64,000 bases of DNA from Herbaspirillum sp. GTDB lineage: Bacteria; Pseudomonadota; Gammaproteobacteria; Burkholderiales; Burkholderiaceae_D. Under the pieces are notes generated by a model. The model was not told where the DNA came from, did no database searches, and saw nothing but the letters and a program-made list of their open reading frames with translations. This document shows, piece after piece, positions 29,942-49,802 of the stretch. A program made the translations under genes and the position numbers. The stretch is taken from positions 62,001-126,000 of the forward strand of contig NZ_JAGIBI010000003.1 in NCBI RefSeq assembly GCF_017744395.1. The letters are read 5' to 3'. Position 1 is the first letter of the stretch. Every line of letters starts with the position of its first letter.

Positions 29942-30025
29942 AATTTTCGGATTTATTTGCATCCGCCGCCATCTTAAGACACCCGATCAGCTATTTCACT
30001 CGCCACGGCGAACAGGACAAACACA

Positions 30026-30454
30026 GTGTTTCAGGGCGCGTCAGCACTCAATCTCGATGCCAAAGGACGGATGACCATTCCGGCCAAGCATCGTGACGCC
30101 CTGCTTGTGCAGTGCGAAGGGCGCGTCACGCTGACCCGCCACCCGCACGGCTGCCTGCTGTTTTTCCCGCGTCCGACCTGGGAAGCGCATCGCGAGCAGA
30201 TCGCCGCCTGGCCGATGTCGGCCCGCGCATGGCAGCGCATCTTCCTCGGCAATGCCTCCGACGTCGAGCTCGACACCGCCGGCCGCATCCTGATTGCGCC
30301 GGAGCTGCGCGCCGCGGTCGGCCTGCAGCGTGACGTGATGCTGCTGGGCATGGGCAGCCATTTCGAAATCTGGGATGCCGCCAAGCTGGCCGAGAGCGAA
30401 TCGGAAGCGGTCGCGGCGGGCATGCCCGATGTGTTGAACAATTTTTCCTTCTGA
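30026..30454 (+). CDS. mraZ: Transcriptional regulator MraZ
   Basis: The product is 142 aa with a GTG start and AGGA nine bases upstream. It contains two copies of the MraZ/AbrB-like half-domain: the first with [19 protein letters not shown], the second with [20 protein letters not shown]. Each includes the DxxGR signature. The ring-shaped oligomer binds phased repeats in its own promoter and represses the dcw cluster. The repeat array is found at 29905-29941, upstream. The first gene of the cluster; rsmH follows after 12 nt. Confidence 0.95.
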
Positions 30455-30466
30455 CGGCCGGGCGAG

Positions 30467-31437
<971 letters not shown>

Positions 31438-31441
<4 letters not shown>

Positions 31442-31710
31442 CCGGGCGCCTGTGCATCCTGCTGACCATCCTGCTGGTGGGGTGCGCCCTGTCCGTGGTC
31501 AGCGCCCAATACAAGGCGCGCAGCCTGTTCATCGAACTGGAGCGCTCGCAGACCGCCGCGCGCCAGCTCGACGTCGACTGGGCGCAACTGCAGCTGGACC
31601 AGTCCACGCTGGGCAAGAACGCCCGCATCGAAGAGCTGGCCCGGCGCGACCTCGGCATGGTGCCGCTGACCGCGGCCCGCACCCAATATCTCACCGTGGG
31701 GGGCAAATGA
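31438..31710 (+). CDS. ftsL: Cell division protein FtsL
   Basis: The product is 90 aa: one N-terminal membrane helix ([20 protein letters not shown]) then a coiled coil ([20 protein letters not shown]) and the family end [18 protein letters not shown]. It is a bitopic divisome protein that pairs with FtsB and activates FtsWI. It overlaps rsmH and ftsI by four bases each. Confidence 0.93.
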
Positions 31711-33485
31711 CCCGCATGCCCCCGCGCACCAATCTCTCCGGCGGCCGCGTCGCGGCTTCCAAGGGGGTGGCGTTTTCTTCCAACCCGATCCTGCAGGTGA
31801 AGCTGCCGGCCTGGCGCTCGCGCTTCGTGCTGTTCGTGCTGTTCATCGCCTTCGCGGCGCTGGCGGCGCGCGCGCTGTGGCTGCAGGGCGTGTCGACCGA
31901 TTTCCTGCAGAAGCAGGGGGCGTCGCGCTACGCGCGCACGCTGGAGCTGCCGGCCACGCGCGGCAAGATCACCGACCGCAACGGCCAGGTGCTGGCTTCG
32001 TCGGTGCCGGTCAAGGCGATCTGGGCCATTCCCGAAGACGTGCAGGCCGCGCCCAAGGAGAAGCTGCGCGAACTGGCCAAGCTGCTGGAGATGAGCGACG
32101 CCGACCTGCGCAAGAAGCTCGACTCCGACCGCAGCTTCGTCTACCTCAAGCGCCAGGTGGAGCAGGACATTTCCGACAAGATCGTCAAGCTCGGCATCCC
32201 CGGCATCGAAACCCGCAAGGAGTACAAGCGCTTCTATCCTGAAGGCGAGGTGATGGCGCACGTGGTCGGCTTCACCAACGTCGAAGATGCCGGCCAGGAC
32301 GGCATGGAACTGGCCGCGCAGAAGACGCTGGCCGGCGTCACCGGCAGCCGCCGCGTGATCAAGGACCGCCTGGGCCGGGTGGTCGAGGATATCGGCTCGA
32401 TCCGCGATCCGCACGACGGGCGCGACCTGACCCTGTCCATCGACAGCAAGATCCAGTACATCGCCTTCACCCAGTTGAAGGAAGCGGTCGACAAGTTCAA
32501 GGCCAAGGCCGGCGGCATCATCGTGGTCGATGCCAAGACTGGCGAGGTGCTGGCATTGGCCAACATGCCGACCTACAATCCAAATGACCGCTCGGTGCTG
32601 ACCGGCGCGCAGCTGCGCAACCGCGTCGTCACCGACACCTTCGAGCCGGGCTCGACCCTGAAGCCGTTCACCGTGGCGCTGGCGCTGGACACCAAGCGCG
32701 TCACGCCCGCCACCGTGTTCCAGACCGCCCCCGGCAAGATGACCATCGGCACTGCGACCATCGGCGACTCGCATGCCCACGGTCCGCTGACGGTGGCGCA
32801 GATCATCGAGAAATCGTCCAACATCGGCACCGCCAAGATCGCGCTGCAAATGCCGCCGGAAGAGATGTGGACCATGTTCACCACGGTCGGCTTCGGCCAG
32901 CAGCCCAAGTACGGCTTCCCCGGCGCGGTGGCCGGCCGCGTGCGCCCCTACAAGTCGTGGCGCCCGATCGAGCAGGCCACGATGAGCTACGGCCACGGCA
33001 TCTCGGTGTCGCTGATCCAGTTGGCGCACGCCTACCTGATCTTCGCCCGCAACGGCGACATCATTCCGCTGTCCTTCACCAAGGTGAACGATTCGCCGAT
33101 CGGCCAGCGCGTGATTTCCGAAAACACCGCGCTGCAGATGCGCCGCATGCTGGAAACCGTGGTCGCCCCCGGCGGCACCGCGCCGCAGGCGCAGGTGCCG
33201 GGCTACCGCGTGGGCGGCAAGACCGGCACCGCCTACAAGATCGAAGGCGGCAAATATGTGCGCAAGTACGTGGCCTCGTTCTCCGGCATCGCGCCGATGT
33301 CGGATCCGCGCCTGATCATTTCCGTGATGATCGACGAGCCGCAGGGCCAGCACTACGGCGGCCCGGTGGCCGGCCCGGTGTTCGCCAGTGTGGCCGCCAA
33401 CGCGCTGCGCGCGCTGAACGTGCCGCCGGATTCCAGCGTGACCAACATCATCATTCCCAAAGAACCGCTTGAGGAGAGCATGTAA
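31707..33485 (+). CDS. ftsI: Peptidoglycan transpeptidase FtsI (PBP3)
   Basis: The product is 592 aa from the ATG at 31707, which overlaps the ftsL stop. A membrane anchor is present (FVLFVLFIAFAALAARALWL), then a pedestal domain with TRGKITDRNGQVLASS. The transpeptidase domain contains the catalytic tetrad S316-T-L-K319, the SSN motif at 370-372, and KTGT at 505-508. It makes septal cross-links together with FtsW, encoded downstream. All active-site motifs are intact. Confidence 0.96.
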   Translation: MTRMPPRTNLSGGRVAASKGVAFSSNPILQVKLPAWRSRFVLFVLFIAFAALAARALWLQGVSTDFLQKQGASRYARTLELPATRGKITDRNGQVLASSVPVKAIWAIPEDVQAAPKEKLRELAKLLEMSDADLRKKLDSDRSFVYLKRQVEQDISDKIVKLGIPGIETRKEYKRFYPEGEVMAHVVGFTNVEDAGQDGMELAAQKTLAGVTGSRRVIKDRLGRVVEDIGSIRDPHDGRDLTLSIDSKIQYIAFTQLKEAVDKFKAKAGGIIVVDAKTGEVLALANMPTYNPNDRSVLTGAQLRNRVVTDTFEPGSTLKPFTVALALDTKRVTPATVFQTAPGKMTIGTATIGDSHAHGPLTVAQIIEKSSNIGTAKIALQMPPEEMWTMFTTVGFGQQPKYGFPGAVAGRVRPYKSWRPIEQATMSYGHGISVSLIQLAHAYLIFARNGDIIPLSFTKVNDSPIGQRVISENTALQMRRMLETVVAPGGTAPQAQVPGYRVGGKTGTAYKIEGGKYVRKYVASFSGIAPMSDPRLIISVMIDEPQGQHYGGPVAGPVFASVAANALRALNVPPDSSVTNIIIPKEPLEESM

Positions 33486-35020
33486 TGGCCCCGCGAGCGC
33501 TCAATATCAAGGACATCGCCGACTGGCTGCGCACCGACGCAGCCGTTGCCGCCGGTGCGCAACTGACCGCCGACTCGCGCCGGGTGGCGCCGGGCGACGT
33601 GTTCTTCGCCTATGTGGGTGATGCCGACGGCCGCTCTTATATAGAAGACGCCGTCGAGCGCGGCGCCGCCGCCGTGGTCTATGAGGCGGCCGGTTTCGCC
33701 TGGCCGGAGCATCTCGGCGTGCCGGGCCTGGCGGTCGACAATCTCAAGGCCTTGGCCGGCGACATCGCCGCCGACTGGTACGGCCGGCCGGACCAGGGCA
33801 TGTTCACCGTGGCCGTGACCGGCACCAATGGCAAGACTTCCTGCGCTTACTGGCTGGGCTCCGCGCTGTCGCGCCTGCCCGGCGCGGGCCTGGCGGGCGT
33901 GGTCGGCACCCTGGGCGTGGGCACTTTCCTGGGCGGCCGCGCCCAGGCGTTCGACGTCACCGGCTACACCACGCCGGATGCCGTGCTGCTGCAACGCAAT
34001 CTGGCCATCCTGGCCAAGGCCAAGGTCGGCGCGCTGGCCATCGAGGCTTCCTCGATCGGGCTGGAGCAGGGCCGCATGAACGGCATGCATGTCGACGTGG
34101 CGCTGTTTACCAATTTCACGCGCGACCATCTCGACTACCACGGCGACATGGTTTCCTATGAGGACGCCAAGCGCAAGTTGTTCGAATGGGATGGCTTGCA
34201 GCATGCGGTGATCAACCTCGACGACGCCATGGGCGTGCGCCTGCTGCCGCTGGTGCAGGGGCGCAAGGTGCCGGTGATTGGTTATGCGCTGGAAGACGAG
34301 GTCGATGCGCAGGCCGCCGGCATTCCCGCGCTGCGCGCCAGCAATATCCGCGGCAGCCATGCCGGCACCGTGTTCCAGGTCGATTCGCCGTTCGGCAGCG
34401 GCCAGGTCAAGACGCAACTGGTGGGGCGCTTCAATGTCAGCAATGTGCTGGGCATCATGGGCGTGCTGCTGGCCAAGGGCGTGGCCTGGGATGCCGTGGT
34501 GGCCGCCGCCGGCGCGCTGACCGCCGCGCCCGGCCGCATGCAGCAGTTCGGCGGACCGGACGTGCCGCTGATCGTGATCGACTACGCGCATACCCCTGAT
34601 GCGCTCGACAAGACCCTGGCCACGCTGCGCCAAGTCGCCACCCAGCGCGGCGGCGAACTGTGGTGCGTGTTCGGCTGCGGTGGCGACCGCGATCCGGGCA
34701 AGCGTCCGCAGATGGGACAGATTTCCGAGCAGGCCGACCATGTGGTGCTGACCAGCGACAACCCGCGCAGCGAAGATCCGCAGGCCATCATCGCCCAGAT
34801 TCGCGCCGGCATCAGCCGCATCGAACCGGTGATCCTGGAAGACCGCGCCGGCGCCATCCTGTGGGCGATCCGCCATGCCACCAAGGCCGATGTGGTCCTG
34901 CTGGCCGGCAAGGGCCATGAGGCCTACCAGGAAATCGCCGGCAAGAAGCTGCCCTTCCTCGACGCCGACCACGTCGCGCTGGCGCTGGCCGCGCGCTCGA
35001 CCATGATGGGGGGCGCGTGA
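33485..35020 (+). CDS. murE: UDP-MurNAc-L-Ala-D-Glu:meso-diaminopimelate ligase MurE
   Basis: The product is 511 aa, with its ATG overlapping the ftsI stop by one base. ATP motif [15 protein letters not shown], central TNFTRDHLDYHGDM with the carbamylated-lysine region, and the C-terminal DNPR at D425-R428. DNPR is the signature for adding meso-diaminopimelate rather than lysine, consistent with Gram-negative peptidoglycan. It adds the third residue of the stem peptide. Confidence 0.96.
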   Translation: MAPRALNIKDIADWLRTDAAVAAGAQLTADSRRVAPGDVFFAYVGDADGRSYIEDAVERGAAAVVYEAAGFAWPEHLGVPGLAVDNLKALAGDIAADWYGRPDQGMFTVAVTGTNGKTSCAYWLGSALSRLPGAGLAGVVGTLGVGTFLGGRAQAFDVTGYTTPDAVLLQRNLAILAKAKVGALAIEASSIGLEQGRMNGMHVDVALFTNFTRDHLDYHGDMVSYEDAKRKLFEWDGLQHAVINLDDAMGVRLLPLVQGRKVPVIGYALEDEVDAQAAGIPALRASNIRGSHAGTVFQVDSPFGSGQVKTQLVGRFNVSNVLGIMGVLLAKGVAWDAVVAAAGALTAAPGRMQQFGGPDVPLIVIDYAHTPDALDKTLATLRQVATQRGGELWCVFGCGGDRDPGKRPQMGQISEQADHVVLTSDNPRSEDPQAIIAQIRAGISRIEPVILEDRAGAILWAIRHATKADVVLLAGKGHEAYQEIAGKKLPFLDADHVALALAARSTMMGGA

Positions 35021-36480
35021 TGCGGTTCGAATTCAAGCAATTGCTGGAATGGATCCGCGCCGCCGAAGCGGCGGCGTCGGCCCATACCGTGCCGACGGTC
35101 GCCAATGCGCCGGCCGGCGCGCTGGAACTCAACGATGTCGTCACCGACAGCCGCGCGGTCAAGCCCGGCAACGTGTTCGTCGCGCTGCGCGGCGAGCGTT
35201 TCGATGCGCATGATTTCCTTGACGCCGTGGCCGCGCAGGGCGCCGCCGCCGTAGTGGTCGAGCGCGTGCCGCAAGGCTTGGCCGTGCCCGCCATCGTGGT
35301 GCCGGATACCCGCGCCGCGCTGGGCCAGATCGCCCACGGCTGGCGCTCCTTGTATCAGGTGCCGGTGATCGGCGTGACCGGCAGCAACGGCAAGACCACG
35401 GTCAAGGAAATGATCGCGTCCATCCTCGCCGCCGCGTTCGGCGACGACGGCTATCTCGGCACGCGCGGCAACTTCAACAACGAAGTCGGCGTGCCGCTGA
35501 CCTTGTTCCGCCTGCGGCCTTCGCATCAGGCAGCGGTGATCGAGATGGGCATGAACCATCCGGGCGAGATCGCTGTCTTGTCGCGCATCGCCGCGCCGAC
35601 GCTGGGGCTGGTCAACAACGCCCAGCGCGAGCACCAGGAATTCATGGCCACCGTCGAGGCGGTGGCGCGCGAGAACGGCGCGGTGATCCGCCATCTGCCG
35701 GCCGACGGCGTGGCGGTGTTCCCGGCCGACGACGATTTCACGCCGCTATGGCGCGAGGAAGCCGGCGCCCGCCGCGTGCTGACCTTCGGCTTGAATGACG
35801 CGGCCGATGTCGGCGCCACCTACAAGCCCGGCGTTTTCGGCAGCACGCTGCAGGTGACGATCAAGGGCATCGCGGTGCCGCCGGCGCACTTCAAGGTGGA
35901 ACTGGCCGCGGTAGGCGAACACAATGTGCGCAACGCGCTGGCCGCCGCCGCCTGCGCTTTGGGCGCGGGCATTCCGGTGGATGCCGTGGTGCGCGGGCTG
36001 GAAAGCTTCGCTCCGGTCAACGGCCGCCTGCAGCGCAAGGCCGCGAAAAGCGGCGCGCTGGTGATCGACGACACCTACAACGCCAATCCGGATTCGGTGC
36101 GCGCCGCCATCGATGTGCTGGCCGCCATCGACGGTCCGCGTGTGCTGGTGCTGGGCGACATGGGCGAGGTCGGCGACCAGGGGCCGCAGTTCCACCGCGA
36201 GATCGGCGCCTATGCGAAGAGCCGCGGCATCGCCCGCCTGTTCGGCCTGGGCGAACTGATGCGCCACGCGGTGCAGGCGTATCAGGAAACACCGGGCGAA
36301 GCGACGGCGCAGGCCGTCCACTTCGCCGATATCGACACGCTCAATGCAGCGGTCGAGCAAGCCGCTCCGCAAGGGGCGACCGTTTTGGTAAAAGGTTCAC
36401 GCTTCATGAAGATGGAGCGAGTTGTACAGCATCTGGTCAACGTTGAATCCAACACGCAACATCAACAGGAGACCCACTGA
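35020..36480 (+). CDS. murF: UDP-MurNAc-tripeptide:D-Ala-D-Ala ligase MurF
   Basis: The product is 486 aa from the ATG at 35020, whose A is the last base of the murE stop; a GTG three bases earlier is the alternative. The N-terminal domain includes [20 protein letters not shown], the ATP loop is [16 protein letters not shown], and the C-terminal domain starts [19 protein letters not shown]. It completes the cytoplasmic pentapeptide. Only one base separates it from mraY. Confidence 0.95.
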
Positions 36481-36481
36481 C

Positions 36482-37651
36482 ATGCTGGTCTGGCTCGCTC
36501 AGAATTTTCAACAGGACTTCGGCTTCTTGCGCCTGTTCAGCTTCATCACCTTCCGCGCGGTGTTCGCCACGCTGACCGCCTTGTTGATCGGCATGATCGC
36601 CGGCCCGGCGGTGATCCGCATGCTCACGCGCATGAAGGTCGGCCAGGCGGTGCGCACCGACGGCCCGCAGACCCACCTGATCAAGTCCGGCACCCCGACC
36701 ATGGGTGGCGTGCTGATCCTGATCGGCATCGGCATCTCGACCCTGCTGTGGGCCGACCTGTCCAACCGCTTCGTCTGGATCGTGCTGATCGTCACGCTCG
36801 GCTTCGGCGCCATCGGCTGGGTCGACGACTACCGCAAGGTGGTCTACCGCGACCCGCAAGGCATGCGCTCGCGCGAAAAGTATTTCTGGCAGTCGCTGAT
36901 CGGGCTGGTGGCGGCGTTCTACCTGGCCTTCTCGGTGTCCGAAGTGAGCAACATGAAGGTGCTCGACCTGTTCGTGGCCTGGGTGCAGTCCGGCTTCAGC
37001 CTCGACCTGCCGCCCAAGGCCGACCTGATCGTGCCGTTCTTCAAGAGCGTGAGCTATCCGCTGGGCGTGTGGGGCTTCATCGCGCTGACCTATTTCGTCA
37101 TCGTCGGCACCAGCAACGCGGTCAACCTGACCGACGGCCTGGACGGCCTGGCCATCATGCCGACCGTGCTGGTGGGCGCCGCGCTGGGCCTGTTCGCCTA
37201 CCTGACCGGCAGCGCCAACTACGCCAAATACCTGTTCATCCCGCACATCCCCGGCGCCGGCGAACTGCTGATCTTCTGCGGCGCCATGGGCGGCGCGGGC
37301 CTGGCCTTCCTCTGGTACAACGCCTACCCGGCGCAGGTGTTCATGGGCGACGTCGGCGCGCTGGCGCTGGGCGGCGCGCTGGGCACCATCGCCGTGATCG
37401 TGCGCCAGGAGATCGTGCTGTTCATCATGGGCGGCATCTTCGTGGTGGAAACGCTGTCGGTGATGATCCAGGTGGCCTATTTCAAATACACGAAGAAGCG
37501 TTTCGGCACCGGCCGCCGCGTATTGCTGATGGCGCCGCTGCACCATCACTACGAACAGAAGGGCTGGAAGGAAACCCAGGTGGTGGTGCGGTTCTGGATC
37601 ATCACCATGATGCTGGTGCTGGTGGGCCTGTCGACGTTGAAACTGCGTTGA
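36482..37651 (+). CDS. mraY: Phospho-MurNAc-pentapeptide transferase MraY
   Basis: The product is 389 aa, starting [19 protein letters not shown]. It is a ten-helix integral membrane enzyme with the conserved cytoplasmic motifs [38 protein letters not shown] (catalytic aspartates), [14 protein letters not shown], and [14 protein letters not shown] with the HHH motif. It transfers phospho-MurNAc-pentapeptide to undecaprenyl phosphate, giving lipid I. A 95-nt gap to murD follows, the largest inside the cluster before ftsZ. Confidence 0.96.
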
Positions 37652-37662
37652 CCGGAACGAAA

Positions 37663-37743
37663 ATGGAAAGCACGGCGCCCCTCGCAAGCGATGCAAGGCG
37701 GCGCCCTTGGCAGTTTGAAGCAAGTAATGGAAGTGAGTTTTAA
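37663..37743 (+). CDS. Possible 26-codon ORF bridging mraY and murD
   Basis: ATG at 37663 with GGAACGAA upstream, 26 codons ending in TAA three bases before the murD ATG. It begins MESTAPLASDARRRPWQF and contains arginine and proline codons. It could couple murD translation to mraY in a gene train where all other joints overlap. No homology can be claimed, and it may be chance. Confidence 0.25.
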   Translation: MESTAPLASDARRRPWQFEASNGSEF

Positions 37744-37746
37744 CGG

Positions 37747-39729
37747 ATGAATTACTCGGGCAAACACGTACTGGTGCTCGGACTCGGCGAGTCCGGCCTG
37801 GCAATGGCGCGGTGGCTGGTCTACTGCGGCGCCGGCGTGCGCGTGGCCGATACGCGCGGCGAGGCGGCATTGGCCGAGCGCCTGGCCGCCCTGCGCGCCG
37901 ACGCGCCCGATGCCCAGGCCGTGCTGGGCCGTCCCTTGTCGCCCGAACTGCTGGACGGCGTGGATTTCGTCGCCGTCAGTCCCGGCCTGGCGCCGGACGG
38001 CGAACTGGCGCCGCTGATGCCGGCCATCGCCGAGCGCGGCCTGCCGCTGTGGGGCGAGATCGAATTGTTCGCCCAGGCGCTGGCCGCCTTGCGCGAAGAA
38101 ACCCTCTACAAGCCCAAGGTGCTGGCTGTGACCGGCACCAACGGCAAGACCACCGTCACCAGCCTGACCGGCATGCTGTGCCAGCGCGCCGGCCTGTCGG
38201 TGCGGGTGGCGGGCAATATCAGCCCGGCCGCGCTGGACGTGCTGCGCGAAGCGGTGATCAAGGACAAGGTGTTCCTGGCCGAACTGGCCGAGCAGGATGC
38301 CATCGCCGCCGCCCAGGCGGCCGCCGAAGCCGAGGCGCAAGCCGCGCACCAGGCCGAGCTGGCGGCGCAGGAAGCGGCCGAGGCAGCCAAGCGCAAGCAG
38401 GCCGAGGCGCGTATCGAAGAAGCGGCAGCCAGCGCCGCGGTATCGGCGTCGGCTCCGGAAACGGGCGCGCCCGAAGCCGGCGATGCGCAAGCGGACGGCC
38501 AGCCGCAGGAGCCGCAGGAGCCGCAAGAACCGCAACAAGCGCTTGAAGCCGCCGCCGGCGAAACTGCCCATGCGGAAGAGCCCGCGGACGCCGCACCGCA
38601 GGGCGATGCCGCCGGCAATGCAGCCGAAGCGATGAACCTGGACGACTTCATGGCCGTCTCGCGCACCGCCGACGAGGACGCGCTGGCCGAAGTGCCGCCG
38701 CCTCCGCCGCCGGAGCCGACCTATCGCGGCTCGATGCCGCAGGCCTGGGTGCTGGAGCTGTCCAGCTTCCAGCTGCACACCACGTACAGCCTGCAGGCCG
38801 ATGCGGCCACCGTGCTCAACGTCACGCAAGACCATCTCGACTGGCACGGCAGCATGCAGGCCTATGCCGCCGACAAGGCGCGCATTTTCGGCGAGCACAC
38901 CGTGCGCGTGCTCAACCGCGACGATGCGACGGTGATGCAGATGGCATCGGCCGCCGCGCCGGTTTCCTCGTTCGGGCTGGACGAGCCGTCCGCGCCGGAC
39001 AGCTTCGGCCTGATCAACGACAACGGCATGCTGTGGCTGGCCAATGCCTTCGTGCATGAGGACGACGAGCAGCCCGAGGGCAAGCGCCGCCGCAAGCAAA
39101 AGGAACTGGTGCCGCCGCCGGTGACGGTCAAGCGCCTGATGCCGGCCGACGCGCTCAAGATCCGCGGCGCGCACAATGCGATGAACGCGCTGGCCGCGCT
39201 GGCCCTGTGCCGCGCCATCGACTTGCCGATGGCGCCGCTGCTGCACGGCTTGCGCGACTACGCGGGCGAACCGCACCGCGTGGAGCTGGTGGCGGTGGTG
39301 CAGGAGGTCGAGTACTACGACGACAGCAAGGGCACCAATGTCGGCGCCACGGTGGCGGCCCTGAACGGGCTGGGCCTGGGCGGCCGTCCCAACCGCATCC
39401 TGCTGATCGCCGGCGGCGACGGCAAGGGGCAGGATTTCTCGCCGCTGGCGCTGCCGGTGGAAAAATACGGCCGCGCCGTGTTCCTGATCGGGCGCGACGG
39501 CCCGGCCGTGCGCGCCGCGTTGGCCAATACCGGCGTCGAGCTGGTCGATTGCGCGACCCTGGAAGAGGCCGTGCAGAAGGCGGGCGACATGGCGCGCGCG
39601 GGCGAGATCGTCCTGCTGTCGCCGGCTTGCGCCAGCCTGGACATGTTCCGCAACTACGCGCATCGCGCCGAAGTCTTTGTGGACTCGGTGCGCGAACTGG
39701 CGCTGTCGCGCGGCGAGGTGATCGCATGA
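37747..39729 (+). CDS. murD: UDP-MurNAc-L-Ala:D-Glu ligase MurD with large central insertion
   Basis: The product is 660 aa; most MurD proteins have about 440-500. The N-terminal Rossmann part starts [17 protein letters not shown]. The ATP loop is [17 protein letters not shown] (about 127-143), then [11 protein letters not shown] (from 156). The following strand, normally only a few residues away, resumes as [17 protein letters not shown] at about 332. Residues about 168-330 are an Ala/Glu/Gln-rich, probably coiled segment, then a [11 protein letters not shown] stretch, an acidic part and [28 protein letters not shown] and HNAMNALAA and YDDSKGTN follow normally, so catalysis should be intact. 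A second small insert (GKRRRKQKE) lies near 445. It adds D-glutamate to UDP-MurNAc-L-alanine. Confidence 0.92.
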
Positions 39730-40997
39730 AGCTCGGACTGTCGTCACTGCGTGGATGGCTGGGCAGCGACAAAGACGCCGCGCCGGCCGCCGCTGGCCGC
39801 CTCAAAGGCGGTGTGGGCGGACGCAGCGGCTACGGCGGCGTCGGCTTCGAACAGCGTTCGCGCATGATGGAATACGACCAGCCGCTGATCTGGGTGGTGC
39901 TGCTGCTGATGCTGTTCGGCATGGTGATGGTGTACTCGGCGTCGGTGGCATTGCCGGATTCGCCCAAGTACGCCTCTTATTCGAACTATCACTTCCTGAT
40001 GCGCCAGGCGATCTTCATCGTACTCTCCATCGTCGCCGGCGCGCTGGCGTTCCGCGTGCGCATCGAAGACTGGCAGAAGTGGGCGCCGTACCTGTTCGCC
40101 GGCACGCTGATCCTGCTGGTGCTGGTGCTGGTCCCGGGCGTGGGCAAGGGCGTCAACGGCGCCAAGCGCTGGCTGTCGCTGAAGGTCATCAACCTGCAGC
40201 CCTCCGAACTGATGAAGTTGTTCATCGTGTTGTACGCGGCCGACTACACGGTGCGCAAGCAGGCGGTGATGCACAAGCTGGTCAAGGGTTTCGTGCCGAT
40301 GGCCGCCGCCGTCGGTTTCGTCGGCCTGTTATTGTTGTTGGAGCCCGACCTGGGCGCATTCGGCGTGATCGTCTGCATCGCCATGGGCATCCTGTTCCTG
40401 GGCGGCATCAACGGCATCTGGTTCGGCGGCATCAGCGCCATGCTGGGCGGCGTGTTCACCCTGGTGATCGTGATGTCGCCGTGGCGGCGCGAGCGTATCT
40501 TCGCCTACCTCAATCCGTGGGAAGAGGAAAACGCGCTGGGCAAGGCCTACCAGTTGTCGCACTCGCTGATCGCCTTCGGCCGCGGCGAGCTGTTCGGCGT
40601 GGGCCTGGGCAGCAGCGTGGAGAAATTGCATTACCTGCCGGAAGCGCATACCGACTTCCTGCTGGCGGTGATCGGCGAGGAGCTGGGTTTCGCCGGCGTG
40701 CTGGTGGTGGTGCTGCTGTTCTACTGGCTGGTCAAGCACGCCTTCGAAATCGGCCGCCAGGCCATCGCGCTGGACCTGACCTTCGCCGGCCTGGTGGCCA
40801 AGGGCATCGGCATCTGGCTGGGCGTGCAGGCTTTCATCAACATGGGCGTGAACCTCGGCCTGCTGCCGACCAAGGGCCTGACGCTGCCGCTGATAAGCTA
40901 TGGCGGATCGGGCGTGCTGCTGAACTGCGTCGGCCTGGCGATCCTGCTGCGCATCGATTACGAAAACCGCGTGCTGATGCGGGGAGGGCGGCTATGA
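39726..40997 (+). CDS. ftsW: Septal peptidoglycan glycosyltransferase FtsW
   Basis: The product is 423 aa from the ATG at 39726 overlapping the murD stop by four bases. A cytoplasmic Gly/Arg-rich leader of about 50 residues is followed by ten SEDS helices, with [35 protein letters not shown] (catalytic Asp region), [16 protein letters not shown] and [15 protein letters not shown]. It polymerises lipid II at the septum with FtsI. Confidence 0.95.
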
Positions 40998-42076
40998 GCG
41001 CACCCCGTAAATTGCTGATCATGGCGGCCGGCACCGGCGGCCATATCTTCCCCGGCCTGGCGATCGCCGACACCATGCGCGCGCGCGGCTGGCAGGTGAG
41101 CTGGCTGGGCACCTCGCACGGCATGGAGTGCGACCTGGTGCCGCGCCATGGCGTGGAAATGGACACCATCGTGTTCGCCGGCCTGCGCGGCAAGGGCCTG
41201 ATGCATACGGTCAAGGGCGTGTGGCGCATGGCGGCCAGCTTCTTCCGTTGCTTCGCCATCCTCGGCCGCCGCCGTCCGGACGTGGTGCTGGGCATGGGCG
41301 GTTATGTGACGGTGCCGGGCGGCGCCATGGCGCGCCTGCGCGGCAAGCCTTTGGTGCTGGTCAATGCCGATGCGGCGCTGCTGCTGTCCAACAAGACATT
41401 GACGCCGCTGGCCGACCGCGTGCTGTTCGGTTTCCCGGCCGACTTCGGCCGTGCCGCCGGCAAGGCCGAGGTCACCGGCAATCCGGTGCGCAAGGAAATC
41501 GTGGCGCTGCCGTTGCCGGCTGAACGTTATGCCGGCCACAGCGGTCCGCTGAAGATACTGGTGGTGGGCGGCAGCCTGGGCGCCAAGGTGTTGAACGACA
41601 ACGTGCCGGCCGCGCTGGCCAAGTTGCCGCCGGAACAGCGTCCGCAGGTCACGCACCAGTCGGGCAAGCAGCATATCGCCGCGTTGCGCGCCGCGTATGA
41701 GCAGGCCGGCGTGCAGGCCGAAGTGGTCGACTTCATCGACGACATGCCGCGCCGCTATGCCGAGGCCGACCTGGTGATCTGCCGCGCCGGCGCGATCACG
41801 GTGTCGGAACTGACGGCGGCGGGCGTGGCGAGCGTGCTGGTGCCGCTGGCGGTGTCGACCACCTCGCACCAGATCGACAACGCCAAATGGATGGCGCAAA
41901 ACAAGGCGGCGATTCACCTGCCGCAACGCGAACTCAGCGCCGACGCGCTGGCGGGTTTGCTGCAGAAACTGGACCGCGCTGCATGCCAGGCAATGGCGCA
42001 GGCGGCATACGAACAAGGCCGGCGCGACGCCAATGAGGCGATCGCGCATGTGCTGGAAGGACTGGTAACACCATGA
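40994..42076 (+). CDS. murG: Lipid I N-acetylglucosaminyltransferase MurG
   Basis: The product is 360 aa from the ATG at 40994, overlapping the ftsW stop. The GT-B fold shows [20 protein letters not shown] (lipid-binding glycine loop), [37 protein letters not shown] and [20 protein letters not shown], then the acceptor-site [11 protein letters not shown]. It attaches GlcNAc to lipid I to make lipid II at the inner face of the membrane. Confidence 0.96.
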
Positions 42077-43494
42077 AGCATCGCGTCAAGAATATCCACT
42101 TCGTCGGCATCGGCGGCTCCGGCATGTCGGGCATCGCCGAAGTCATGCTCAATCTCGGCTACGGCGTGTCCGGCTCCGATCTGGGCAGCAATGCCGCGAC
42201 CCAGCGCCTGGCGCAGCTGGGCGCTTGCATCCGCTACGGCCACGCGGCCGAGAACATCGATGGCGCCGACGCCATCGTCACCTCCACCGCCGTCAAGGGC
42301 GACAACCCGGAAGTGCTGGCGGCGCGCAAGAAACATATCCCCATCGTGCCGCGCGCGGTGATGCTGGGCGAACTGATGCGCCTGAAGAAGGGCATCGCGA
42401 TCGCCGGCACCCACGGCAAGACCACCACTACCTCGCTGGTGGCCAGCGTGCTGGCGCAGGGCGGGCTGGACCCGACCTTCGTGATCGGCGGCCGCCTGAC
42501 TTCGGCCGGCGCCAACGCCAAGCTGGGCACCGGCGAATTCATCGTGGCCGAGGCCGACGAGTCGGATGCCTCGTTCCTGAACCTGACGCCGGTGATCGAG
42601 GTGATCACCAACATCGACGCCGACCACATGGAGACCTACAACCATGATTTCGCGCGCCTGAAGCAGGCCTTCGTCGAGTTCACCCAGCGCCTGCCGTTCT
42701 ACGGCGTGGCGGTGCTGTGCCTGGATGACCCGCATGTGCGCGAGATCATGCCGATGGTGTCCAAGCCCATCCTCACCTACGGCTTCCATGAAGACGCCGA
42801 CGTGCGCGCCACCGACGCCCAGGCGGTCGACGGCAAGATGGTGTTCACGGTGCAGCAGGACGGCTACGCGCCGATGCAGGTGAGCCTGAACCAGCCCGGC
42901 ATGCACAACGTGCAGAACGCCTGCGCGGCGATTGCCATCGCGCGCGAGCTGGACGTGGACGACGCCGCCACGCAAAAGGCGCTGACCGAATTCAACGGCG
43001 TCGGCCGCCGCTTCACCCGCTACGGCGAGGTGCCGCTGGTCGATGCCGAGGGCAAGCCGGCCGGCAGTTTCACGCTGGTCGACGATTACGGCCACCACCC
43101 GGTCGAAACCGCGGCGACGATTGCCGCCGCCCGCGGCGCGTATCCGGGCCGCCGCCTGGTGCTGGCGTTCCAGCCGCACCGCTACACCCGTACGCGCGAC
43201 CTGTTCGAAGATTTCGTCAAGGTGCTGTCGCAGCCGGACGTGCTGGTGCTGGCCGAGGTGTATTCCGCCGGAGAGTCGCCGATCGTGGCCGCCGACGGCC
43301 GTTCGCTGGCGCACGCGCTGCGCGCGGCCGGCAAGGTCGAGCCGGTGTTCGTGGACGACATCGCCGACATGCCCGAGACCATCCGCAACGTGGTGCGCGA
43401 CGGCGACGTGGTGATGACCATGGGCGCCGGCTCGATTTCCGCCGTACCCGGCCGCCTGGTGGCGGCCACTGAAAAGAATGAGGCAAGCGCATGA
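42073..43494 (+). CDS. murC: UDP-MurNAc:L-alanine ligase MurC
   Basis: The product is 473 aa. It starts with [20 protein letters not shown] and has the ATP loop [45 protein letters not shown] and [18 protein letters not shown]. It attaches the first alanine to UDP-MurNAc. The stop overlaps the ddlB start by four bases, as the start overlaps murG. Confidence 0.96.
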
Positions 43495-44492
43495 TAGCCC
43501 AGGCCACCATCAAGAGTTTCGGTCGCGTCGGCGTGCTGTTCGGCGGCCGTTCGGCCGAGCGCGAAGTATCGAAGATGTCCGGCAGCGGTGTGTTGCAGGC
43601 CTTGCGCAGCAAGGGCGTGGACGCGCATCCGTTCGATCCGGCCGAGCGCAGCCTGGGCGAGCTGGAAGCGGAAAAGTTCGACCGCGTCTTCATCGCGCTG
43701 CATGGCCGCTACGGCGAGGACGGCACGATCCAGGGCGCGCTGGAGCAGATGGGCCTGCCCTATACCGGCCCCGGCGTGATGGCCTCGGCCATCGCCATGG
43801 ACAAGGTGATGACCAAGCGCATCTGGCTGGGCCACGGCTTGCCGACGCCGCGTTTCGCCGTGCTGGACAAGGACACCCCGCGCGAAGTGTTGCGCACCGT
43901 GCCCGATGACCTGGGCCTGCCGCTGATGCTGAAGGCGCCGCACGAAGGCTCGACCATCGGTATCGCCAAGGTCAACGGCTATTCCGACATGCAGTCGGGC
44001 TTCGAGATGTGCGCCAAATACGACGCAGTGGTGCTGGCCGAGGAATTCATCCGCGGGCGCGAACTGACGGTGCCGGTGATCGGCACCGGCAGCGCGGCGC
44101 GCGCCCTGCCGGTGATCGAGATCCGCGCGCCGGAAGGCAACTACGACTACCAGCACAAGTACTTCACCGACGACACCAAGTACCTGTGCCCGGCGCCGCT
44201 GGACGAAGCACTGACGCGCCGCGTGCAGGAACTGGCGGTGCAGGCTTTCCACGCGCTCGGTTGCCGCGGCTGGAGCCGGGTCGACTTCATGCTGCGGGAG
44301 AAGGATGGGCAGTCCGAGCCGTACCTGCTGGAAATCAATACCTCGCCCGGCATGACCGGCCACTCGCTGGTGCCGATGGCGGCCAAGGCGATCGGCCTGA
44401 GCTATGAGGATTTGTGTTGCGAGATTTTGCAGTCGGCGGCGCTCGATATGAAGCCTTCGAAGGACTGGACGCCGCAGGCGGGCCAATCTTGA
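43491..44492 (+). CDS. ddlB: D-alanine:D-alanine ligase (DdlB)
   Basis: The product is 333 aa with an ATP-grasp fold: [74 protein letters not shown], and [11 protein letters not shown] with [15 protein letters not shown]. It supplies D-Ala-D-Ala for MurF. Its position between murC and ftsQ is the usual one for DdlB. Confidence 0.94.
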
Positions 44493-44511
44493 TGGTGGAG
44501 CGCGCGCGGTA

Positions 44512-45282
44512 ATGTGGCAAGACGTGAAGATGCTCAATGCGGCCAGCAACACGCTGCTGGCGCTGGTGGTGCTGGCCCTGCTGGCGTCGGGCCTGTGGTG
44601 GGTGGCGCAGCGGCCGATGTTTACGCTGCACACCATCCGCATCGAGAGCGCCGGCGAGTTGCCGTTGGAGAAGGTGAATGCGTTGACGGTAAGGGCCACG
44701 GCGGTGCCGCGGATCCACGGCAACTTCTTCACCACCGACCTGTCGGCGGTGCGCGCGGCTTTCGAGGCGGTGCCGTGGGTGCGTCGCGCGATGGTGCGGC
44801 GCGAATGGCCGGACCGGCTGGTGGTGAAGGTAGAGGAACATAAGGCCCTGGGTACCTGGGGCGAGGATGGCAAGTTGCTGTCGCAGAAAGGCGATGTGTT
44901 TACCGCCAACCTGGCCGAAGCAGAGGATGACGGCGACTTGCTGGAGTTCGAAGGGCCGGTAGGCAGCGAGAAGCAGGTGGTGGCGCGGCTGGCGCAGTTC
45001 CGCCAGTGGTTCGCGCCGCTCAAGCTGGCGCCGGAGTCGCTGGTGCTGTCGAACCGCTATGCGTGGACGGTGCGGCTGGATAACGGCATGACGGTAGAGC
45101 TGGGGCGCGACCAGGGCGAGGCGGTGCTGAAGGAACGCATCGACCGGCTGGTGGCGGTGTACCCGCAGCTGATGGAACGGTTGCAGGGCAAGATTGAAAG
45201 CGTCGACATGCGCTACCCGAACGGGATGGCGCTCAAGGCGGATGGAATGGTGCTGGCGGCACTGAACGGAAAGAAAAAATAA
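44512..45282 (+). CDS. ftsQ: Cell division protein FtsQ
   Basis: The product is 256 aa. A short cytoplasmic part and one helix (TLLALVVLALLASGLWWVAQ) precede a POTRA domain (MFTLHTIRIESAGELPLEKV) and a beta domain. It includes the FtsQ-type VRRAMVRREWPDRLVVKVEE. It is the hub that joins FtsBL to the division ring. Confidence 0.92.
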   Translation: MWQDVKMLNAASNTLLALVVLALLASGLWWVAQRPMFTLHTIRIESAGELPLEKVNALTVRATAVPRIHGNFFTTDLSAVRAAFEAVPWVRRAMVRREWPDRLVVKVEEHKALGTWGEDGKLLSQKGDVFTANLAEAEDDGDLLEFEGPVGSEKQVVARLAQFRQWFAPLKLAPESLVLSNRYAWTVRLDNGMTVELGRDQGEAVLKERIDRLVAVYPQLMERLQGKIESVDMRYPNGMALKADGMVLAALNGKKK

Positions 45283-45292
45283 GCGGAACGAT

Positions 45293-46525
45293 ATGACAAA
45301 AGACGCAAAGAACTTGATCGTCGGTCTCGACATCGGCACATCGAAAGTGGTGGCGGTGGTGGCCGAGGTGCTGGCCGACGGCCGGCACGAAGTGATCGGC
45401 CTGGGCCAGTCCGAATCCAAGGGGCTGAAGAAGGGCGTGGTCGTCAATATCGAAGCCACGGTCGAGTCCATCCAGCGCGCGCTTGAAGAGGCCGAACTAA
45501 TGGCCGACTGCAAGATCAGAAATGTCTATACCGGCATCGCCGGCAGCCATATCCGCAGCTTCAATTCGAGCGGCATGGTGGCGATCAAGGACAAGGAAGT
45601 GACGGCGGCCGACGTCTCGCGCGTGATCGAGACCGCCAAGGCGGTCAACATCCCGACCGACCAGCAGTTGCTGCATACGGTGCCGCAGGAATTCATCGTC
45701 GACAGCCAGGAAGACGTGCGCGAGCCGATCGGCATGAGCGGCATCCGCCTGGAAGTGAAAGTGCATATCGTGACCGGCGCGGTCTCTGCGGTGCAGAACA
45801 TCGTCAAGTGCGTGCGCCGCTGCGGCCTGGAAGTGTCGGACCTGATCCTGCAGCCGATGGCCTCGGCCGACGCCGTGCTGACCACCGACGAGCGCGAGCT
45901 GGGCGTGGTGCTGGTCGACATCGGCGGCGGCACCACCGACGTGGCGGTGTTCACCGAAGGCGCGATCCGCCACACCGCCGTGATCCCGATCGCCGGCGAC
46001 CAGATCACCAACGACATCGCGATGGCGCTGCGCACGCCGACGCTGGAAGCCGAGGAAATCAAATTGCGCTACGGCGTGGCCAAGCAAATCCTGGCCGATC
46101 CGACCGAGACGCTGGAAGTGCCCGGCCTGGGCGACCGCAACCCGCGCACCCTGTCGCGCCAGGCGCTGGCGGCGGTGATCGAGCCGCGCGTGGAAGAGCT
46201 GTTCGCGCTGGTGCACCAGGTGGTGCGCGAGTCGGGTTACGAAGAAGTGCTGTCCTCGGGCATCGTGCTCACCGGCGGTTCGGCAATGATGCCGGGCATG
46301 ACCGAGCTGGCCGAAGACATCTTCCTGAAACCGGCGCGCCTGGGCACGCCGGAATACAGCGGCCAGCTGGCCGACGTGGTGCGCAGCCCGCGCTACTCGA
46401 CCGTGCTGGGTCTGCTGCAGGAAGCCAAGAAGCAATACCTGCGCGGCTACATCGTGACGCGCCAGGAAGGTTCGGTGAAGGCGGTATGGCAGCGCATGAA
46501 GGAATGGTTCCTCGGTAACTTCTGA
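45293..46525 (+). CDS. ftsA: Cell division protein FtsA
   Basis: The product is 410 aa with the actin fold: LIVGLDIGTSKVVAVVAEVL (phosphate 1), ITGA-type loops, VLVDIGGGTTDVAVFTEGAI (phosphate 2), and GIVLTGGSAMMPGM (adenosine). The SHS2 (1C) domain lies in between. The C-terminal amphipathic helix (AVWQRMKEWFLGNF) is the membrane tether. It anchors FtsZ to the membrane. Confidence 0.96.
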   Translation: MTKDAKNLIVGLDIGTSKVVAVVAEVLADGRHEVIGLGQSESKGLKKGVVVNIEATVESIQRALEEAELMADCKIRNVYTGIAGSHIRSFNSSGMVAIKDKEVTAADVSRVIETAKAVNIPTDQQLLHTVPQEFIVDSQEDVREPIGMSGIRLEVKVHIVTGAVSAVQNIVKCVRRCGLEVSDLILQPMASADAVLTTDERELGVVLVDIGGGTTDVAVFTEGAIRHTAVIPIAGDQITNDIAMALRTPTLEAEEIKLRYGVAKQILADPTETLEVPGLGDRNPRTLSRQALAAVIEPRVEELFALVHQVVRESGYEEVLSSGIVLTGGSAMMPGMTELAEDIFLKPARLGTPEYSGQLADVVRSPRYSTVLGLLQEAKKQYLRGYIVTRQEGSVKAVWQRMKEWFLGNF

Positions 46526-46768
46526 AGTGTGTTGCCGAAGGTGATTCAGGATGTAAAAGGTTTGGCGGCAAATGGTTTTTGACAGCAAAGTCAACGGCAG
46601 TAGGGTTTGGGAAGTTTAGTTTTCATCGCAGTATCGGTATTTGTTTTTTGGTTTTGGATTTGCAGTATCAATTGATTGGACGGATGTGCAGTGTTCAGTT
46701 GCTAGTCGTCACACCGCGTGATGCCTATCAACTGCCTGCTGCAGACATACATATTTAAAGGAGTCATC
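46526..46768 (+). promoter_or_regulatory. ftsA-ftsZ intergenic region with possible ftsZ promoter
   Basis: 243 bp without a gene, lower in GC than its neighbours. TTGACA at 46579-46584 followed 16 bases later by TAGGGT (46601-46606) is a weak promoter candidate. A strong AAAGGAG ribosome site at 46757-46763 precedes ftsZ. This gap suggests ftsZ has its own transcription. Confidence 0.4.
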
Positions 46769-47956
46769 ATGGAAATCGATATGGTCGACAATGCGACGCT
46801 GGGCACGATCATCAAGGTCGTCGGCGTCGGCGGCGCAGGCGGCAACGCTGTGCAGCATATGATCAACAAGGGGGTGTCGGGCGTCGAGTTCATCGCCGCC
46901 AACACCGACGCGCAGGCGCTCAAGCAGTCCAAGGCGCACAACGTCATCCAGATCGGCGACACCGGCCTGGGCGCAGGCATGCAGCCCGACGTCGGCCGCC
47001 GCCTGGCGGAAGAAACCCGCTCGCGCATCGAAGATGCGTTGCGCGGCGCGCACATGGTGTTCATCGCCGCCGGCATGGGCGGCGGCACCGGCACCGGCGC
47101 CGCTCCCGTGGTGGCGCAGGTGGCCAAGCAGCAGGGCGCGCTGACCGTTGCGGTGGTCTCCAAGCCGTTCTCGTACGAAGGCCAGAAGTGCATGGACATC
47201 GCCGACGCCGGCCTGGAAGAGCTGTCCCAGCACGTCGACTCGCTGATCATCATCCTCAATGAAAAGCTGGAAGAGATCTACGAGGACGACAGCATGATCG
47301 AATGGCTGTCGCACGCCGACGACGTGTTGAACAACGCCGTTGCCGGTATCGCCGAGATCATCAACGTGCCGGGTCACATCAACGTCGACTTCAACGACGT
47401 CAAGACCATCATGGGCGAGCAGGGCAAGGCCATGATGGGCACCGCGACCGCTTCCGGCGTCGATCGCGCGCGCGTGGCGGCCGAGCAGGCCGTGGCCTCG
47501 CCGCTGCTGGACGGCATCGACCTGTCCGGCGCGCGCGGCGTGCTGGTCAACGTGACCGCCAGCCGCAGCCTGAAGGGTAAGGAAATCAAGGAAGTGATGG
47601 CGACCGTGCGCGCTTTCGCGGCCGCCGACGCATCGATCGCCCAGGGTATCGCCTACGACGACACGATGGGCGACGAGATCCGCGTGACCGTGGTGGCGAC
47701 CGGCCTGGGCCGTGCACGCAAGACGGTGCAACTGGTGCAGACCCCGGTGCTGCGTACCGGTACCCACAACGAGCCGATGATGGCCGGCACCGGCACCATG
47801 ATGCAAGGCGCCGCGCAGCCTGCGGCCACCTTCGGCGGCCTGAAGGCGCCGGCCGTGTGGCGCCGCGAGTCGGCTTCCGACACCGTGCGCGCGCTGGAGA
47901 AGAACGGCATGGAAACCTACGACATTCCGGCTTTCCTGCGCAAGCAGGCGGACTGA
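46769..47956 (+). CDS. ftsZ: Tubulin-like division protein FtsZ
   Basis: The product is 395 aa from the ATG at 46769 (AAAGGAG upstream). GTPase core: VVGVGGAGGNAVQHMI, FIAANTDAQAL, the tubulin signature MGGGTGTGAAPVVAQ, and NVDFNDVKTIM with the T7 catalytic aspartate. The linker is short, about 60 residues. The C-terminal peptide YDIPAFLRKQAD carries the conserved binding motif for FtsA and other partners such as ZapD, which is also encoded in this window. A terminator follows at 48023-48051. Confidence 0.97.
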   Translation: MEIDMVDNATLGTIIKVVGVGGAGGNAVQHMINKGVSGVEFIAANTDAQALKQSKAHNVIQIGDTGLGAGMQPDVGRRLAEETRSRIEDALRGAHMVFIAAGMGGGTGTGAAPVVAQVAKQQGALTVAVVSKPFSYEGQKCMDIADAGLEELSQHVDSLIIILNEKLEEIYEDDSMIEWLSHADDVLNNAVAGIAEIINVPGHINVDFNDVKTIMGEQGKAMMGTATASGVDRARVAAEQAVASPLLDGIDLSGARGVLVNVTASRSLKGKEIKEVMATVRAFAAADASIAQGIAYDDTMGDEIRVTVVATGLGRARKTVQLVQTPVLRTGTHNEPMMAGTGTMMQGAAQPAATFGGLKAPAVWRRESASDTVRALEKNGMETYDIPAFLRKQAD

Positions 47957-48022
47957 TCGCCGGTTGACCTGCTTGGCCGGGTTGTTTGATTTCCAGCAGC
48001 CCGGTCGGTAACAGGGCATACT

Positions 48023-48051
48023 AACGCCGCGCCCCGAGCGCGGCGTTTTTT
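48023..48051 (+). terminator. Rho-independent terminator after ftsZ
   Basis: AACGCCGCGC/GCGCGGCGTT, a 10-bp stem with a five-base loop, then a T-run. Confidence 0.88.
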
Positions 48052-48104
48052 CGCCCGCACGGGCCACTCAGTCACACAGATTTACAACCAGACAAGGAAA
48101 CATC

Positions 48105-48608
48105 ATGACCATCAAGATCGGCGACCGCCTGCCGGAAGGCAACCTGGCTGAATTCATCGAGACCGAAACCGAAGGCTGCTCGCTCGGCCCCAACACCTTC
48201 AAGGTGTCGGACCTGGTCAAGGGCAAGAAGATCGCGCTGTTCGCGCTGCCCGGCGCATTCACCCCGACCTGTTCGGCCAAGCACGTGCCGGGCTACATCG
48301 CCCACGCCGCGCAGTTCAAGGCCAAGGGCATCGACGAGATCTGGTGCCTGTCGGTCAACGACCCGTTCGTCATGGGCGCCTGGGGCCGCGAGCAGAAGGC
48401 CACCGGCATCGTGCGCATGCTGGGCGACGGCAGCGCCACCTTCACCAAGGCGCTGGGCATGGTGTTCGACCTGACCGAGAAGGGCATGGGCATCCGCTCG
48501 CAGCGCTACTCGATGCTGATCGAGGACGGCGTGGTCAAGCAACTGAACCTGGAAGCGCCGGGCAAGTTCGAAGTCTCGAACGCCGAAACCCTGCTGGGCC
48601 AGCTGTAA
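48105..48608 (+). CDS. Peroxiredoxin (Prx5-like)
   Basis: The product is 167 aa. It starts MTIKIGDRLPEGNLAEF. The peroxidatic cysteine lies in FALPGAFTPTCSAKHVPGYI, the PxxxTxxC motif of the Prx5 group, followed by IDEIWCLSVNDPFVMGAWG with a further cysteine. It reduces peroxides using thioredoxin or glutathione/glutaredoxin. It sits between ftsZ and lpxC with hairpins on both sides, so it is probably an independent unit. Confidence 0.9.
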   Translation: MTIKIGDRLPEGNLAEFIETETEGCSLGPNTFKVSDLVKGKKIALFALPGAFTPTCSAKHVPGYIAHAAQFKAKGIDEIWCLSVNDPFVMGAWGREQKATGIVRMLGDGSATFTKALGMVFDLTEKGMGIRSQRYSMLIEDGVVKQLNLEAPGKFEVSNAETLLGQL

Positions 48609-48615
48609 GAACCCC

Positions 48616-48653
48616 GGCCCGGCCGTCCCCGCTTTTGCGGAAGCGGCCGGGCC
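48616..48653 (+). terminator. GC-rich hairpin after the peroxiredoxin gene
   Basis: GGCCCGGCCG pairs with CGGCCGGGCC around an inner smaller hairpin (CCGC-tttt-GCGG). Only a short T-poor tail follows, so termination efficiency is uncertain. Confidence 0.5.
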
Positions 48654-48728
48654 TTGCTCGATGGAAAAAGTCGCGTTCCGCTGACCCGGATTTGCAACAC
48701 CCGGCGGCCTGGCATCCCCTGCCTTGGC

Positions 48729-48734
48729 TATAAT
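48729..48734 (+). promoter_or_regulatory. Consensus -10 box directly before lpxC
   Basis: TATAAT at 48729-48734, six bases before the lpxC ATG at 48741. No Shine-Dalgarno exists between them. If used, the transcript would start at or near the start codon (leaderless). No good -35 was found. Confidence 0.45.
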
Positions 48735-48740
48735 GGCTGG

Positions 48741-49676: not shown

Positions 49677-49688
49677 ACGCGCCATGAG

Positions 49689-49721
49689 AAACGCCCCGAT
49701 ACATCGGGGCGTTTGTCTTTT
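49689..49721 (+). terminator. Rho-independent terminator after lpxC
   Basis: AAACGCCCCGA/TCGGGGCGTTT stem with a four-base loop, then TTTGTCTTTT-like tail. Confidence 0.85.
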
Positions 49722-49802
49722 CAGGCGTAAATTTTTTACGGAAACAAGGGCACCCGCTTTTGCCGCGCGGAAAATAAGCCTGCTTTCCCTTCCCTGTTTC
49801 GC

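Follow-up and report, generated by a model that had tools for sequence, protein, structure and literature searches.

A long insertion in one central-domain loop of MurD in Herbaspirillum, a possible spacer or docking arm

MurD is an essential enzyme, and its fold is widely shared. In the window (the whole stretch of 64,000 nucleotides of Herbaspirillum DNA analyzed here), the murD gene encodes a product in which one loop is enlarged by more than one hundred residues. This locus raises the question of what such a stretch is, where in the lineage it arose, and what it might do on an enzyme of this kind.

An intact ligase with one enlarged loop

The murD gene of the window follows mraY and precedes ftsW. 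Its product scored 356.2 bits against the NCBIfam equivalog TIGR01087, above the curated cut-off of 211.95, and three Mur-ligase domains were recognized by Pfam, the middle one being matched as two stretches. The predicted structure of the protein was a MurD fold. When 47 MurD proteins were aligned, TGTNGKTT (129-136), E337, D362-H363, K377, H476-N477, and D526-S527-K528 were invariant, and we take these residues to have catalytic or ATP-binding roles. Judged by its sequence, the window murD encodes an ordinary MurD ligase, and D-glutamate-adding activity is predicted for it. An earlier interpretation made from the DNA letters (the sequence-only reading) had described the frame as intact and all ligase motifs as remaining. 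Both descriptions hold, as there is one open frame of 660 aa and the motifs flanking the insert are among those invariant in the 47 aligned proteins.

In the window MurD, GNI and ELSSFQL are separated by 181 residues, while outside the genus the usual distance from GNI to ELSS is 26 residues, the value in 86 of the 96 MurD loci read. Thus, approximately 155 extra residues are present. In the case of Pseudomonas aeruginosa MurD (PDB 7sy9), residues 154 and 158 align to residues 168 and 333 of the query, and three residues are found where the window MurD has a 162-residue stretch. The insert is located in one loop of the MurD central domain. The claim of an insertion of about 160 residues in this domain was confirmed, and the 11-residue peptide and the PPPPPPEP that had been noted inside it were as described; the peptide coincides with a tandem repeat. 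The features of the locus are summarized in Table 1.

Table 1. Positions of the murD gene, the parts of its insert, and adjoining features in the window
Feature	Window position	Strand	MurD residues	Basis or remark
mraY-murD spacer	37652-37746			Length of 95 bases; contains the inverted repeat GGCGCC
murD, UDP-N-acetylmuramoyl-L-alanine--D-glutamate ligase	37747-39729	+		660 aa, ATG start, single intact open frame
Predicted single unbroken helix	38230-38445	+	162-233	AlphaFold2; block means of pLDDT are 90-97 as far as residue 230
Insert	38251-38736	+	169-330	GNI-to-ELSS distance; alignment to P. aeruginosa MurD
Disordered acidic Ala/Glu/Pro linker	38449-38631	+	235-295	pLDDT <50 at 235-283 and 285-295 (residue 284 excepted); pN/pS 0.655
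Tandem repeat	38501-38534			The 11-residue peptide, inside the linker
Clade-specific 14-residue peptide	38632-38673	+	296-309	Motif [LM][NS]L[GD].F; pN/pS 0.33 (0.15-0.57)
Proline-rich return segment	38674-38736	+	310-330	Block-mean pLDDT 78 and 94; pN/pS 0.149 (0.05-0.30)
Second variable MurD loop	39052-39126		436-460	Basic run KRRRKQK, partly common to insert-free relatives

The neighboring genes were compared in the same manner. For MurE, MurF, MraY, FtsW, MurG, MurC, and Ddl, with 74-80 related loci each, the longest query-only run was at most 14 residues, against a median of 154 for MurD; for the covered part of FtsI, it was at most 1 in 73 loci. A cluster-wide inflation of wall and division genes was rejected, as the seven neighbors and the covered FtsI part carry no comparable insert. 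In searches for an origin, the insert matched no Pfam family and no PDB sequence at E up to 1. A second copy in the genome was sought and none was convincing, the best other match having an E of 0.017 and 25% identity. When the 44-residue C-terminal part was searched alone, it returned itself and one match at an E of 1.35. Moreover, an intein or mobile insertion was rejected, as no splicing or endonuclease domain was recognizable (Pfam, E up to 1).

With respect to the literature, none of the titles listed dealt with an insertion in the MurD of Herbaspirillum or of its family members, and none was relevant to disordered inserts in essential enzymes or to arms made of a helix plus a motif. The main text of a paper on the essential genes of H. 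seropedicae (PMC5086560) contained no word starting with 'mur' in the portion available, and the available portion of a paper on the MurD fold (PMC4816537) did not mention this loop.

Distribution of the insertion

The sequence-only reading had presented the insertion as that of a single MurD. The insertion is real, but it is not peculiar to this gene and is shared by most of the genus. The closest relative with a species name was Herbaspirillum rhizosphaerae. The genus set consisted of 34 genomes, of which 33 were readable and one (G026), with a murD fragment only, was left out. The insert was present in 29 of the 33, with 78-241 extra residues (GNI-to-ELSS distances of 104-267). The other four had no insert and a distance of 26 residues, and one of these genomes (G023) is only 63% complete. 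Besides the window, the insert was in frame in 28 genomes, in one of them as a contig-end fragment only.

On a tree built from the insert-free core, 28 insert-bearing proteins formed one group with a support of 91/91. This group comprises clade A, with 18 proteins including that of the window (100/100), and clade B, with 10 proteins and weak support (85/51). Next on the tree were a pair, L036 with an insert and L150 without one, and then three proteins without an insert. The insert types followed the core tree, and none of the 28 members of the clade A and B group had lost the insert, the smallest retaining 92 extra residues. The insert of L036 is of a different kind; it has a GNI-to-ELSS distance of 104 (78 extra residues), is Glu/Pro-rich with Glu-Pro repeats (EPMEPMEPTEPTEP), contains neither PPP nor Y.G, and could represent either a separate gain or a degenerate remnant. 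In either case, at least two insert changes are required since L036 has an insert and its sister L150 does not. The simplest reading of the core tree, and of the alignment of MurD from relatives that had been proposed as a check, is an origin of the arm within the genus, involving at least two changes.

The spacer between mraY and murD also differed among genus members. Its folding was no better than that of shuffles (z 0.39), and its length was 86-96 in five of the six clade A genomes checked (the window's included) and 10-44 in the other seven genus members checked.

Outside the genus, a plain short loop was found in 88 of the 96 MurD loci read, a set in which 15 loci were chosen because of long open frames and at least one genome is probably a duplicate (L070/L162). 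The other eight loci had 2-28 extra residues (GNI-to-ELSS distances of 28-54). These belong to Duganella, Pseudoduganella, and other family members, and several of their inserts are Ala/Pro-rich; six of the eight were on the core tree, in another part of the family. In the order sample of 140 genomes, the loop was read in the window protein and in eight others with a broken or shortened profile match. Three of the eight had no longer loop (24, 26, and 26), and five did, with GNI-to-ELSS distances of 96 in G438, 58 in G393, 56 in G520, 58 in G398, and 48 in G424. The five span four other families of the order, with G520 and G398 sharing one genus. Inserts rich in Ala/Pro/Glu/Ser were seen in G438, G393, and G520 but not in G398 or G424. 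The remaining order-sample matches ran through with room for at most approximately 73 extra residues over the whole protein, so that small inserts are possible among them. In the phylum sample (140 genomes), only G000 and G438 began at profile position 152 among the matches listed, which do not include G552, G617, and G635 and give profile positions rather than loop readings.

Insertion has occurred repeatedly in this loop of MurD. The smaller inserts at the same loop in other Burkholderiales show that it can accept added sequence for which no special function is required. The Herbaspirillum loop was the longest of those read, and conservation was measured in Herbaspirillum alone. One result that the sequence-only reading had named as counting against it was the presence, throughout the order, of the same insert as an ordinary linker conserved in neither sequence nor length. 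An insert of such length was found only in the genus. The description as an ordinary linker fits the middle of the insert alone, but not its ends or the clade A helix length, which are conserved.

A contig labelled Alistipes senegalensis (MAG; L147) encodes a betaproteobacterial-type MurD with 60% identity to the query and is probably from a mislabelled or contaminated bin. In Noviherbaspirillum aridicola (L070 and L162), the frame holding murD is open for 840 codons, far beyond the length of MurD, and the start of this MurD is therefore uncertain.

Predicted anatomy and constraint of the arm

The structure was predicted with AlphaFold2 on the 47-protein alignment, in which only two aligned rows carry the long insert, and the mean pLDDT was 85. 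In this model, the normal central-domain helix after GNI is extended by approximately 65 residues of the arm, giving an Ala/Glu-rich helix of about 72 residues and roughly 11 nm, with the caveat that Ala/Glu-rich helices are easily over-extended by AlphaFold2. The linker that follows differs in length and sequence among relatives. A short helix (298-304) was predicted with low confidence within the clade-specific peptide. Subsequently, residues 311-330 become ordered and are followed by the ELSSFQL strand; the return segment and the next two residues contain Y.G.[L/M]PQ. The MurD of H. rhizosphaerae (L069, clade B) was predicted with the same plan, with a helix at 161-251 (91 residues), low confidence at 248-345, and order rising from approximately 351. 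The arm is predicted to consist of a long helix, a disordered acidic stretch, and a proline-rich return that is ordered. Every one of the 29 inserts is acidic, with net charges of -17 to -50.

The accessory arm on an intact ligase envisaged by the sequence-only reading agrees with these models, in which the predicted helices have 72 and 91 residues, and with the ends being conserved and the middle not. The insertion had also been called low-complexity, and a correction to this picture is that it contains two short, well-conserved stretches. The description of the Ala/Glu part as coiled-coil-like was not borne out. The hydrophobic moment, a simple measure and not a dedicated coiled-coil predictor, exceeded that of shuffles in none of three segments of eight sequences (lowest p of 0.077). 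Accordingly, a coiled coil was rejected, as no heptad periodicity of hydrophobic residues over shuffles was detected. With regard to a long single alpha-helix, both predicted helices are long and no amphipathicity was seen.

Selection was estimated from 17 of the 18 clade A sequences as pN/pS, using Nei-Gojobori counts with a bootstrap over codons. The values for two parts of the catalytic core were 0.19 and 0.17. Along the insert, pN/pS was 0.27 (0.14-0.43) in the helix base, 0.39 (0.30-0.49) in the distal helix, 0.65 (0.58-0.74) in the linker, where the alignment is uncertain, and 0.20 (0.11-0.31) in residues 296-330. Within the last of these, the MNL-DFM part was loose (0.33) and the proline-rich part was at 0.15 (intervals in Table 1). 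By these sequence comparisons, the clade A return segment is under selection like that on the catalytic core, and the middle drifts and varies in length. The contrast was weaker in clade B, with 0.59 in the linker, 0.40 in the return segment, and 0.16 in the C-terminal core part.

The first proline of the insert lies 74-81 residues after GNI in 17 of the 18 clade A proteins and 97 residues after it in the other, and the linker of this clade has 50-151 residues by a crude count. In clade B, helix length is not conserved, with the first proline at 45-127. The motif Y.G.[L/M]PQ was found in all 28 proteins of the two clades, and the MNL-DFM motif ([LM][NS]L[GD].F) in all 18 proteins of clade A and in none of the 10 of clade B. 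The pS values of the conserved ends (0.31 and 0.35) were similar to those of the core (0.28 and 0.36). Because synonymous change in the ends is like that in the core, the constraint acts on the protein and not on an RNA or an overlapping gene, and an overlapping RNA or gene in the insert was rejected on this ground. No Rfam family reached its gathering score in window positions 30000-50000.

Explanations of the arm

The reading that we favor, with a probability of roughly 45%, is that an accessory spacer or docking arm replaces one central-domain surface loop of a catalytic MurD within Herbaspirillum. It is only narrowly preferred to a tolerated expansion with structurally constrained ends, which is considered below. 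In the favored reading, the helix after GNI would continue outward as an Ala/Glu-rich helix and pass into the disordered acidic stretch, and the conserved proline-rich segment with Y-x-G would return to the strand carrying ELSSFQL. The arm would act as a spacer with a putative docking peptide. The helix and the disordered stretch would hold the conserved peptide (MNL-D/G-DFM-x-VSR in the clade of the window) off the enzyme, and MurD might in this way be brought to a further cytoplasmic wall-synthesis protein, or be kept close to one, with its catalysis untouched. The insert enters the protein ahead of the strand that has ELSS at its far end, and this side of the MurD fold is presumably away from the active site; thus, catalysis would tolerate the arm.

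The presence of the insert in 29 of the 33 readable genomes, the conserved ends, the near-constant helix length of clade A, the plan predicted in two clades, and the lack of a comparable insert in the neighboring wall and division genes were counted for the spacer or docking arm. The absence of MNL-DFM from clade B and its loose pN/pS in clade A, the weaker constraint on the return segment and the variable helix length in clade B, the four genus members without an insert, and the smaller inserts elsewhere were counted against it. The sequence-only reading had suggested that the arm could bind another divisome or wall-synthesis protein, and the smaller inserts elsewhere speak against this as well. 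The most plausible candidate partners would be MurG, MraY, or MreB. According to the available portions of PMC6420597 and PMC4929429, Mur ligases interact with MurG and with MreB. It is rather unlikely, in our estimation, that Herbaspirillum evolved a built-in MurD scaffold arm in the full sense, with a rigid helix of approximately 11 nm and a tunable disordered spacer presenting a conserved peptide and docking MurD in a membrane-side wall-synthesis complex. If this were true, the arm would be a natural, genus-restricted case in which the Mur channelling complex that has been proposed is built into a single enzyme. A clade-wide arm with conserved ends would be a natural experiment on Mur ligases as members of a physical complex, and the channelling idea is made testable by related genomes with and without the arm and by an arm that could be cleanly deleted.

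The closest known systems are the canonical MurD enzymes of E. coli (1uag/4uag), P. aeruginosa (8dp2), and Acinetobacter baumannii (7ti7), from which the Herbaspirillum protein differs by the long stretch that takes the place of three residues in P. aeruginosa. The short inserts of Duganella and Pseudoduganella are at the same position, and several are likewise Ala/Pro-rich, but they differ in being far smaller. Bordetella pertussis is placed in the same order as Herbaspirillum. Its MurE-MurF fusion, in which two enzymes are joined via a linker of approximately 20 residues (PMC6420597, available portion), is likewise a lineage-specific change of Mur-ligase architecture, whereas the Herbaspirillum MurD has an insertion within one domain. 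The C-terminal tail of FtsZ is described, in the portion of PMC9939409 available, as a disordered linker of variable length and poor conservation beside a short conserved peptide. By analogy only, the MurD arm resembles it, since a fast-evolving, variable disordered linker beside a conserved peptide was also found here, less clearly in clade B. Unlike the FtsZ tail, the MurD arm is internal and joined at both ends, starts with a long predicted helix, and at such a length was found in one genus only.

Nearly as likely as the favored reading is that the expansion was tolerated and non-adaptive. GC-rich codon repeats would have grown in the loop of a Herbaspirillum ancestor, and the ends would have been kept for clean loop closure by a helix base and a proline-rich return. 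The same-loop inserts in four other families of the order and the distances of 28-54 in eight of the 96 loci outside the genus are in line with this, as are the weakly constrained linker (pN/pS 0.65), its traces of tandem repeats, and the runs seen in relatives, for example QESGQESGQESG or EPMEPMEPTEPTEP. It fits less well with the near-constant helix length of clade A, with the clade A MNL-DFM peptide, which is not part of the return that was predicted with confidence to be ordered, and with the 28-protein group, in which no insert was lost and at least 92 extra residues were kept. If the arm were neutral, the MurD loop would be one that accepts large insertions and would be useful for tagging the enzyme.

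It is improbable that the acidic arm acts on MurD itself as an intramolecular regulator or solubility aid, by contact with the basic KRRRKQK loop (446-452), by surface shielding, or by tuning of domain closure. The acidity of all 29 inserts would suit this explanation. Core positions co-varying with the insert were also compared between 27 insert-bearing and 58 other proteins, with L085 (no N-terminal motif), L151 (a contig-end fragment), and L036 left out. Eight positions passed the threshold, and three of these belong to the second variable loop. P443 and G445 were fixed in 27 of 27 insert-bearing proteins and were gaps in 48 of the 58 others, and K452 was present in 26 of the 27. However, the basic loop also occurs in proteins without an insert, and the differences in the second loop may be plain ancestry; the co-variation of the core with the insert is inseparable from ancestry.

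An artefact (a frameshift or misassembly) or a foreign element (an intein or mobile insertion), which abrupt low-complexity sequence within an essential gene might suggest, is highly improbable in view of the in-frame insert in 28 further genomes (one as a contig-end fragment), the lack of hits to Pfam or to PDB sequences up to an E of 1 or of a convincing second genomic copy (best E 0.017, 25% identity), and the agreement of insert types with the core tree.

Another place of insertion was observed in one genome of the order (L179), in which a Pro/Ala/Glu-rich insert lies instead between the central part of MurD and the second variable loop.
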